Assembly: GCA_017479705.1 (NCBI GenBank)
Contig: JAFVCA010000008.1
Location: 1 to 64,000, forward strand
From: Bacteroidales bacterium
GTDB lineage: Bacteria > Bacteroidota > Bacteroidia > Bacteroidales > P3
Reading direction: 5' to 3'
Length of the DNA: 64,000 nt
Positions 1,078-51,300 of this stretch are shown here, one piece after another (within the stretch, counting starts at the first letter, position 1; each line of letters begins with the position of its first letter). The notes below the pieces were generated by a model that worked only from the letters and a program-made list of their open reading frames with translations, was not told the DNA's origin and ran no database searches. The translations under genes and the position numbers were made by a program.

Positions 1078-1107
1078 GGTAATTGCCAACGGAATACTTT
1101 TGCAGCC

Positions 1108-1215
1108 TGACCGTGCCGGAGGCACGGCATCCTATTAACCCCACACTAAGCGACCAAAGGGAGCGCAGTGTGGGGTTTCCTGTCGCCCCGTCCTGCGTGT
1201 CGAAGACACGCTACA
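1108..1215 (+). repeat. Cloverleaf dispersed element, copy A (partial)
   Basis: Hairpin 1 (CCGTGCC/GGCACGG, 1111-1127) is followed by ATCCTATTA, a central stem ACCCCACAC (1138-1146)/GTGTGGGGT (1168-1176), and hairpin 3 GCGTGTC/GACACGC (1195-1211). This is the same order as copies B and C, but hairpin 1 has a different sequence that still pairs. I see no clear terminal inverted repeats, so it is probably a decayed copy. Confidence 0.75.
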
Positions 1216-1324
1216 ATCATTATAATTCCAGTAACTTGCAGAGGTTGCTCTCCAGAAAGAGCAAAAAATGCGGATTTTGCTCTCCCGACAGAACAACCAT
1301 TATTGAGTTTTGACATTAACATTG

Positions 1325-1455
1325 TAGATCAAATGATTACGGAAGCACACCCACACTGCACGGAAGCGGGGATGCTTCCATTCGGTCGCAATCCCATTCC
1401 CGTTTGTGTGGGCTATTGAGATTCAACCCATTCAAGGTTGTTGAAAAATCAGTCC
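1325..1455 (-). repeat. Cloverleaf dispersed element, copy D (degenerate)
   Basis: Read on the minus strand this shows ACTGATTTTTC, a hairpin CAACC/GGTTG (1424-1440), the spacer GAATCTCAATA, and the central stem CCCACAC (1350-1356)/GTGTGGG (1406-1412). The far hairpin has decayed. It lies in the opposite orientation to copy A, about 110 bp away. Between the two copies (1216-1324) I see nothing recognisable. Confidence 0.65.
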
Positions 1456-1516
1456 ACTACCAAAATAAATCTAAAAGTGGTTGCACCTTTTTCTTATGGT
1501 CGTCCTTTGCCCTGTT

Positions 1517-7855: not shown

Positions 7856-7892
7856 ACTTTGTTTCCAATTTACACATTGCTATAGTGTAAAG

Positions 7893-8069
7893 TATGACTG
7901 ATTTTTTGCAGATAGGCTCAATGTCGCGTGTCTTCGACACGCTGAGATGTGGAGACATTTCTGACCCCACACTGCGGGATAGAGGGTTGCTCCCTTTCGG
8001 TCGCGACCCCTATCCCTTGTGTGGGGTTAATAGGATTCAACCTCTTCGAGGTTGTCAAAATCAGTCATA
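7893..8069 (-). repeat. Cloverleaf dispersed element, copy B (complete, with terminal inverted repeats)
   Basis: The 177-bp element is bounded by perfect 13-bp inverted ends TATGACTGATTTT/AAAATCAGTCATA. Inside are three stem-loops: GCGTGTC-ttc-GACACGC; a long central stem ACCCCACA/TGTGGGGT with an inner GATAG..CTATC stem; and CAACCTC-ttc-GAGGTTG. The ends close a cloverleaf. It fills most of the 322-bp gap between the nitroreductase gene and queD. No transposase is encoded, so this looks like a miniature inverted-repeat element. Confidence 0.85.
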
Positions 8070-8122
8070 TACGAAAATAGAGCCTTACACATTCAACATT
8101 TTCAATCTTCAATCATAATAAG

Positions 8123-19460: not shown

Positions 19461-20546
19461 TTAATCGGTTGATGTGGTGTCGTCGGCCTGTTCGTCGGGG
19501 AGGTCTATGACTTTGAAACGTGACTGGCGCTGATGCCAGCGGTCGAGGGCCAGCTGGCGCAGGTCGGCCACGTCGTCGCGCTCGTCCATGATTTCTAATC
19601 CCACGATAGTCTCAATGATGTCTTCGAGGGTGATGATGCCTTGGAAGCTGCCGTATTCATCAATGACGCAGGCGATGTGGCGTTTGTTGCGGAGCATGGA
19701 GTCCCAGATTTCGGACACGGGCATCTCCTCCCGGTACATGACAATGTCACGCTTTATCTCGCCGAGAGTCATGTTGAACTTGTCTTCGGTGAGGAGCTCC
19801 AAGGCCTCACTGCGCAGCACGTAGCCGGTGATGTACTCGTCGCTGTCGCTGTAGACGGGTATGCGGGAGAAATGGCTGTAGGTTTTGTCGCGATAGAAAT
19901 CCTTGAGAGTCATCTGCTCCGGGGCGATGGCGGCGACGGTGGTGGGGGTCATGACGTCCTCGGCTTTCACGTCGTCGAGCTTGATGACGTTCTGTATGAT
20001 TTTGTTCTCGTCCTCGTCAATGACTTCTTCGTCCTCGGCCATATCGGCCATGGCGGCCACCTCTTCGCGGCTTACGGCGGCCTCCTCCTCATCGTCAGTG
20101 GCAATGGTCTTGGAGAGTTTCTCCACAATCCACACGATGGGGAACAGCAGGATGATGATGAGGCGCAGTGTACGGGTGGTGAAACCCATCAACTTTTTCC
20201 AATAGCGGGTGCCTATGGTCTTGGGGATAATCTCGGAGAAGACGAGTATGAGGATTGTGGTAATGGCGGAGACAAGGCCGAACCACTGGCTGCCGAACAC
20301 CTCGGTGGCTTGCGCTCCAACCCCGGCGGCACCGATGGTGTTGGCAATGGTGTTGAGCGACAGGATGGCGGCAATGGGGCGCGCGTTGTCGGTCTTGTAT
20401 CGCTTGAAGCGAGTGGCGGGCTTGTAGCCTTCATCTTCCCGCATGTTGACGTAGGACAGCGGGGTGGACATGAGCGTGGCTTCCAGTATCGAACAGATGA
20501 ACGATATGGTCATCGCGCCCAAAAGAAATATCAGCAGGAGAGTCAT
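19461..20546 (-). CDS. CNNM/CBS-domain membrane protein (HlyC/CorC-like)
   Basis: A 361-aa DUF21 (CNNM) protein: four hydrophobic segments in residues ~1-150 with the conserved SEIIPKTIG motif, an acidic linker (~155-190), then a CBS pair (SRIPVYSD...; ACVIDEYGSFQGIITLEDIIE). The family is linked to magnesium/cobalt efflux or homeostasis. The usual C-terminal CorC_HlyC domain is short or absent, since the protein ends about 45 residues after the second CBS. The start is ATG 20546. The PNGase gene follows with no spacer. Confidence 0.9.
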   Translation of the reverse strand: MTLLLIFLLGAMTISFICSILEATLMSTPLSYVNMREDEGYKPATRFKRYKTDNARPIAAILSLNTIANTIGAAGVGAQATEVFGSQWFGLVSAITTILILVFSEIIPKTIGTRYWKKLMGFTTRTLRLIIILLFPIVWIVEKLSKTIATDDEEEAAVSREEVAAMADMAEDEEVIDEDENKIIQNVIKLDDVKAEDVMTPTTVAAIAPEQMTLKDFYRDKTYSHFSRIPVYSDSDEYITGYVLRSEALELLTEDKFNMTLGEIKRDIVMYREEMPVSEIWDSMLRNKRHIACVIDEYGSFQGIITLEDIIETIVGLEIMDERDDVADLRQLALDRWHQRQSRFKVIDLPDEQADDTTSTD

Positions 20547-50787: not shown

Positions 50788-51300
50788 CCCCGCCGCCCCG
50801 CACCCCCCTCGTCCCCAAAACACCACTTCAACGCTCCTTCTATATTCATTCAATATTGAAGGAACGTTGAACGAGGGTCGAAGAGCCGTTCCAGCAACCT
50901 GAATACCTGACCCTTACACCCCGCCCACCGCCACCCCCATACAAACGCGCAACGAGCTGCAAACAGCTCCCAACCCCAAGAAGGCCAACACAACCCATCA
51001 CAACCACAAAGTTTCGTAGCTTTCTCCAAACTACAGACACTGGGTTATGCGGGTGGAACCCCTTATCTCATATCCCAAACCCACGCTTTATATGTTAGGC
51101 TCTATTTTAACATGTAACTGATTTTCAAACAGCCTCGAAGAGGCTGAATCTCAATAACCCCACACAAGGAACGCAGTGTGGGGTCAACGAAATCCCCGAT
51201 TCTCAGCGTCTCGGAGAGACGCTACATTGATTCTATAGGTAAAAAATCTGTCATACTCTATACTAGAGCGATATGTAAAAAGTCTCCACATCAAAAAAAA
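50788..51300. repeat. Repeat-rich gap: palindromic element and cloverleaf copy C
   Basis: 50827-50871 is an inverted repeat TTCAACGCTCCTTC/GAAGGAACGTTGAA (one mismatch) whose near-identical inverted copy lies at 62376-62420. Cloverleaf copy C spans about 51113-51254: ACTGATTTT end, CAGCCTC-gaa-GAGGCTG, the shortened central stem ACCCCACAC/GTGTGGGGT, GCGTCTC-gga-GAGACGC, and an imperfect right end AAAATCTGTCAT. No gene is seen in this 513-bp stretch. Confidence 0.75.

Follow-up and report, generated by a model that had tools for sequence, protein, structure and literature searches.

The hairpin-rich element described here is very probably a REP-MITE chimera, in which a REP-like core of Y1 genes stands inside IS1595-type ends and has two routes of spread. 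It was studied in a window of 64,000 nt (the whole stretch of DNA that was analysed) from a Bacteroidales bacterium (GCA_017479705.1, JAFVCA010000008.1:1-64,000, forward strand), and it is real non-coding mobile DNA of gut Bacteroidales. Within this genus, a set of Y1 (HUH/tyrosine) transposase genes has its three-hairpin core as a REP-like repeat partner. We infer movement by either enzyme, Y1 or IS1595: the Y1 enzyme would recognise the folded single strand and would copy or move bare units like copy A of the window, and an IS1595 transposase supplied in trans would move the group I units as double-stranded MITEs. In these group I units, which comprise copies B and C, the decayed copy D and further ones from several other species, the core is enclosed in IS1595-like terminal inverted repeats of about 30 bp, and most of them have AT-rich 8-bp target duplications. 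One core would have two routes of spread, and the window contains both forms. An earlier note on this DNA had offered a MITE and a REP-like element among its readings; each is supported for a different layer, the former for the IS1595-type ends and the latter for the Y1-linked core.

Copies in the window and the fold of their core

Copy B is a complete group I element, a REP-like core inside IS1595-type ends, of 207 bp (7878-8084, plus strand). The perfect 13-bp inverted ends formerly ascribed to it (TATGACTGATTTT at 7893-7905 and 8057-8069) do exist, but the inverted similarity extends beyond these 13-mers to GCTATA.../...TAGAGCC and TTACACAT flanks both sides, thus they are merely the inner part of imperfect inverted ends of about 30 bp and copy B has to be delimited at 7878-8084. 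The left terminal inverted repeat (TGCTATAGTGTAAAGTATGACTGATTTTTT, 7878-7907, plus strand) and the right one (GGCTCTATTTTCGTATATGACTGATTTTGA as read on the minus strand, 8055-8084) are 30 bp each, and the left 8-bp target duplication TTACACAT (7870-7877) agrees at 8/8 positions with the right one (8085-8092). The three hairpins follow each other on the plus strand in the fixed order that had been proposed: H1 (7926-7942, 7-bp stem), the central stem (7964-8027, where 7964-7972 pairs with 8019-8027, with a longer inner hairpin) and H2 (8038-8054, 7-bp stem, 7/7 pairs of which have changed on both sides among the copies). The 207 bp fold far better than shuffled sequences, with z-scores of -8.3 as DNA and -8.7 as RNA, and 0 of 200 shuffles were as good. 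Relatives of copy B on the host contigs C44 and C39 are 97% and 96% identical to it.

Copy C (51098-51270, minus strand, 173 bp) is likewise a complete group I element, with a short central stem and a target duplication of 7/8 in its flanks (TTACATAT/TAACATAT). Copy A (1106-1220, minus strand), a core model match that lies 28 bp past the stop of a 354-aa ORF, is a bare core without terminal repeats. Copy D (1318-1475, plus strand) is a decayed group I element with its core at 1318-1445; its right-end remnant reaches about 1475 according to a reading by eye. The earlier note had listed these four as copies of the element: all of them were matched by the covariance model, but only B and C have the same form, since A has no inverted ends and D keeps only a decayed right end. 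The core model scored 116.6 bits for C, 104.8 for B (7917-8059), 87.2 for A and 27.3 for D (E 0.00026), where the first three scores are partly given by construction, because the model includes B and A among its rows and one row has the same sequence as the core of C, while the score of D is independent of the model construction. An additional 23-bit core match lies on the opposite strand of copy C. Neither B (207 bp) nor C (173 bp) is covered by an ORF retained by the mechanical ORF script, which bears out the claim that the element encodes nothing.

The general layout of the core is H1, a spacer of about 21 nt, the central stem, which ends with T and then TA, and H2. Its fold was evaluated on an alignment of 34 non-redundant cores from the host and its relatives (omitting 5 redundant cores and 11 fragments in which no stem was recognised). 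In the three helices 97.1% of the cells are paired versus 87.5% in shuffles, 12 of the 23 pairs are compensated (changed on both sides) versus 6.5 in shuffles, and the covariation score is 0.273 versus 0.104; slid controls gave at most 0.051, a comparison that favours the structure since it came from one alignment row. A second set was composed of 24 of the 55 units matched in the flanks of Y1 genes, originating from 8 loci. Their sequences are widely divergent and the helices are kept, with 88.6% of the cells paired versus 72.6% in shuffles, a covariation of 0.418 versus 0.160, and two-sided changes in 16 of the 23 pairs versus 11.8. No excess of further pair types was detected in the 34-row alignment and the 24 Y1-flank units, 164 and 163 of 500 shuffles being as high. 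The final T and the following TA of the central stem were present in every aligned unit (34/34 and 24/24). At one locus in a sister genome (L031, start of G028:C1) the central stem contains its inner hairpin (GGGTTGCTCCC...GGTCGCGACCC) in about three tandem copies.

The element is dispersed well beyond the window. A blastn search with copy B yielded 35 pieces at 31 places of the host genome (74.7% complete), 27 of which were read, and the covariance model, searched through the genome and its relatives as had been suggested earlier, gave 51 core matches in the host. With the pairing above the shuffled level, these copies speak against the four loci being unrelated. Of the 59 genomes available for the genus, 50 (the host among them) gave a core match at E 0.01 or better, and the maximum was 62 in one genome; these are counts of matches and not of copies, because at most 64 candidates were scored per genome and matches on both strands are possible, as in copy C. 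A pattern scan of named genomes found at least 117 stretches, and the 80 that were listed are in Bacteroidales, Bacteroidetes or Prevotellaceae records, many with titles naming a ruminant gut compartment.

The conserved helices might also be explained by a structured RNA (a terminator, a 3'-end stabiliser or a cis-regulator) which is mobile by chance. The compensatory changes are in line with such a function, and so are the positions of the copies: judged on mechanical ORFs, 26 of 27 are intergenic and one lies inside a 215-aa ORF, possibly not a real gene, hence the assertion that the element sits only between genes holds with this one exception. Furthermore a core follows the same gene in three species, as at the syntenic place of copy A two other species have cores of 55.9 bits (G081) and 84.3 bits (G018), the next shared gene in G081 being further away than in the window. 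Against this explanation, the element has no constant orientation to the neighbouring genes (among 27 copies 7 have neighbours directed along the element, 9 against it, 5 converging, 3 diverging and 3 unassigned), at gathering score Rfam yielded only tRNA in the window and no family that matches the element, and helices recognised as single-stranded DNA would covary alike. A structured RNA as the main explanation is regarded as unlikely, though the element may also have a role as RNA.

Y1 transposase genes as partners of the core

A Y1 match is present in 39 of the 59 genomes. The host has one (gene at C41:7404-7745), with four cores in its flanks, two being rows of the model. From 82 listed Y1 matches 30 loci were examined, and 36 loci around DDE transposase matches served as controls (total lengths of 93 kb and 88 kb, respectively). 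The core is clearly associated with the Y1 genes: the model had 55 matches in 16 of the 30 Y1 loci, including two L009 units that are rows of the model, and 14 loci were without a match, versus 2 matches in 2 of the 36 control loci, one of them in a known group I copy close to where a contig ends, the other in a degenerate element.

Ten Y1 proteins have the sequence [GH]W..EYA (L009, L162, L163, L168-L174). All ten of their loci have a core match, of 25 to 85 bits, versus 6 of the 20 other Y1 loci, with 23 to 37 bits, and 7/7 of the Y1 loci with a core of at least 40 bits are of this type, which was defined only after the core matches had been seen. In seven of the ten loci the gene stands between outward-pointing cores, the nearest on the left being on the minus and the nearest on the right on the plus strand; the arrangement deviates in L170, while in L168 and L169 only one side of the gene has cores. 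Seven head-to-tail cores with a spacing of 122-124 bp were found in L174. In the tree of the Y1 proteins with strict bit labels the core-bearing genes are clustered, not as one clade, and require 3 changes at 40 bits, 5 at 30 bits and 6 at 20 bits, compared to means of 6.3-10.3 changes for shuffled labels; when the labels were partly set by the sequence type, a single branch with a support of 60/66 was obtained. Some core-rich genomes (G006, G061 and G073, with 56, 40 and 30 cores, 72-88% complete) have no Y1 match.

By motif, rather than by a tree with reference sequences, 29 of the 30 Y1 genes are assigned to TnpA-Y1 subclass 1.2: the Y motif Y---Q--HH occurs in 29 of the 30 loci, and L147 has YIEEQ, as in subclass 1.1. 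The HUH motif, which is DH[IV]H in subclass 1.2, appears as DHVH, DHIH, DHMH, NHVH or NHIH. According to the available text of a 2018 survey (PMC6006769), Y---Q--HH marks TnpA-Y1 subclass 1.2, which is found mostly in Cyanobacteria and Bacteroidetes and was entered there without REPs. The host Y1 protein does not fall into class 2 TnpA-REP (RAYT), since in NCBIfam it scores 27.5 for REP_Tyr_transpos (cut-off 80) and 63.5 for IS200/IS605 (cut-off 55), and its motif is that of subclass 1.2.

Repeats are not restricted to the core-bearing type of Y1 genes. When the 500-bp flanks were scanned for repeated 12-mers, these took up over 5% of the sequence in 21 of the 30 Y1 loci versus 0/15 and 0/15 of the controls (15 of the 36 DDE loci and 15 further loci). 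Many of the 20 other Y1 loci show, by eye, other repeated hairpins, e.g. CCCCGTAGGGG units followed by a TTAATAG-like or CAATAG-like stretch. The subclass 1.2-like Y1 genes outside the core-bearing type are those of L148-L161, L164-L167 and L175, and many of them are flanked by other short hairpin repeats such as tandem CCCCGTAGGGG units. This suggests that genes of this kind may generally have a repeat partner.

IS1595-type ends and other ends around the core

The source of the group I ends is indicated by a sister genome (G028), which has two complete elements of 1118 bp with group I-like ends around a 353-aa gene. The encoded protein is an IS1595 transposase (NF033547 2.3e-54, PF12762 1e-12, and the zinc ribbon PF12760 8.5e-6) and was matched in 12 of the 59 genomes, host included (E 1e-5). 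Ends of the same kind adjoin IS1595 matches in G021, G027, G067 and G071, and the end adjoining the match in G074 agrees in its outer part only; near the distant IS1595 matches of the host, G017, G030 and G081 no plausible end was found by pattern. The left end of copy B is identical to six IS1595-locus ends at 20-24 of 30 positions, where 0 of 20000 shuffles reached any of the scores, and its right end at 19-22 of 30, where 0 to 4 of 20000 shuffles were as good. For the four ends of B and C together the identity is 17-24 of 30, a level that no more than 24 of 20000 shuffles attained. A transposase with such ends, which the earlier note had recommended looking for, occurs in the intact elements of the sister genome; in the host genome (74.7% complete) no IS1595 gene with group I-like ends was found. 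The sole IS1595 match of the host (C3, 308-aa frame) was rejected as the partner because of its 28% identity and the absence of such ends by pattern. L108 (G067:C28) and L084/L085 (G028) agree in all of the 27 C-terminal residues of the IS1595 transposase, and such identity between two species hints at a recent transfer of the IS.

Target duplications were analysed in 45 end pairs, which remained after three of the 48 candidates (L003:1159, L235:1974 and L124:1462) had been dropped and included the two complete IS copies. The 8-bp duplication is perfect in 20 of the 45 and matches at 7/8 in 10 of the 45 (30/48 when the dropped rows are counted); in the remaining 15 at most 6 of 8 bases match. 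The mean match at width 8 is 0.76 versus 0.39 in the control, and at the other widths between 2 and 12 it is at most 0.10 above the control. The 30 duplications matching at 7-8 of 8 bases have an A+T content of 87.5% versus 64.3% in their flanks. The two complete IS1595 copies of G028 have no matching duplication (3/8 and 1/8). The dropped row L124 has a real core, poor ends and a duplication match of 3/8. An IS1595 member with AT-rich 8-bp direct repeats is described in the available text of PMC12561309.

Besides the duplications of B (8/8) and C (7/8), an empty site was recognised for copy B at the level of the locus. In the sister genome G081 the flanks of the copy B locus are 92% and 87% identical, and 29 bp without a core replaces 277 bp of the window; the intergenic DNA has diverged there, hence the site is empty at locus level. 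The artificially joined flanks of copy B aligned to G081 no better (score 291) than the undivided stretch from the window did when long gaps cost nothing (305). At the counterpart of copy C the sister contig breaks off. The core of copy A is syntenic in other species and copy B is absent from G081, which suggests that a bare unit can be of old date and a group I unit of recent date. Most group I copies resemble each other in the length of the stretch that separates the left end from H1, and in them it ends with TCAATGT or alike, suggesting a single old capture; judged from their different spacing, L204 and L213 may be separate captures.

It could be supposed that group I is a plain MITE with interior hairpins that arose by chance and a secondary link to Y1 genes. 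Its IS1595-like ends and 8-bp duplications would be accounted for in this way, and in some G028 copies H1 is replaced by other sequence; two of these (L088 and L089, 224 bp) still have perfect duplications, thus the entire core is unnecessary for mobility. Nevertheless the core occurs without these ends around Y1 genes and in copy A, and the Y1 association weakens the supposition further. Additionally, groups II and III hold the same core between other inverted ends, of the GATTATCCGCA type, which were found in other genomes too (host examples are C4:25602-25708, C4:32552-32658, C1:8124-8230, C34:9877-9994 and C25:4504-4621, among others). We consider the plain MITE improbable. For groups II and III no clear target duplication emerged from 23 candidate rows, several of them spurious (the best excess was 0.14, at scattered offsets), and no transposase was found for the GATTATCCGCA-type ends. 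One host copy (C47:20314-20419; L019, about 20287-20440) joins, by eye, a left end resembling that of group II to a right end of group I, and is apparently a recombinant within the core.

The derivation of the ends from an ISL3-type transposon instead of IS1595 is very improbable: ISL3 ends likewise start with GGCTCT and are accompanied by 8-bp duplications, and the host genome has six ISL3 matches, but the sole long ISL3 locus (L086) has, by eye, no paired ends and only a lone TATGACTGATTTG downstream, while IS1595 loci in several genomes do have such ends. The elements examined lend ISL3 no support, and it was rejected as the source of the ends. Five host contigs (C28, C39, C45, C51 and C53) have their first bases inside an ISL3-family match, so an ISL3 IS probably breaks the assembly.

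Relation to known repeat systems and significance

The REP-MITE chimera combines features of repeats which have been described separately. As far as the available text of PMC3733652 and PMC6006769 goes, REP/RAYT systems (REPtrons, BIMEs, REPINs) are likewise built on short palindromes between genes, which number in the tens and cluster, inverted or in tandem, around the genes of Y1 transposases. A GT.G foot is found ahead of H1 in 31/34 and 21/24 of our units. Unlike in those systems, the unit here consists of three hairpins in fixed order, the canonical GT[AG]G foot is present in 16/34 and 11/24 units only, with its last G inside the stem, where it is paired, and the Y1 genes have the motif of the subclass surveyed without REPs (PMC6006769). 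With IS1595-family MITEs the element shares ends like those of the intact IS of the sister genome, AT-rich 8-bp duplications and the lack of coding capacity; it differs in that its interior is a multi-hairpin repeat also found alone or between other ends. A further likeness is with the TIR/REP fusions around ppf 607 of P. putida and pfs 4255 of P. fluorescens, in which, according to the available text of PMC3733652, degenerate REP units are joined to other sequence and have multiplied by the hundred. There the partner is an unrelated stem-loop, whereas here it is an IS1595-like end pair with target duplications. In the titles and abstract beginnings of the open-access literature we found nothing about REP cores enclosed in MITEs of the IS1595 family, and nothing about a REP partner for subclass 1.2.

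A broader model can be put forward tentatively, as a possibility that falls somewhat short of being probable. Subclass 1.2 Y1 proteins may be REP transposases acting on multi-hairpin single-stranded units, and IS1595 ends, as well as ends of at least one further kind (groups II/III), may have captured the cloverleaf of this genus, in which case the repeat would be driven by two engines independent of each other, the first acting on the folded single strand and the second on double-stranded ends.

The element unites REPs and MITEs, small bacterial repeat classes which are usually catalogued separately, and it illustrates a repeat changing its means of spread. It should also be kept in mind that conserved, covarying three-hairpin folds in the intergenic DNA of Bacteroidales need not be regulatory RNAs. 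An orphan Y1 subclass gains a concrete candidate substrate, the natural variants of which have helices that covary from gene to gene, and the function of these mostly low-copy Y1 genes becomes directly testable in vitro.
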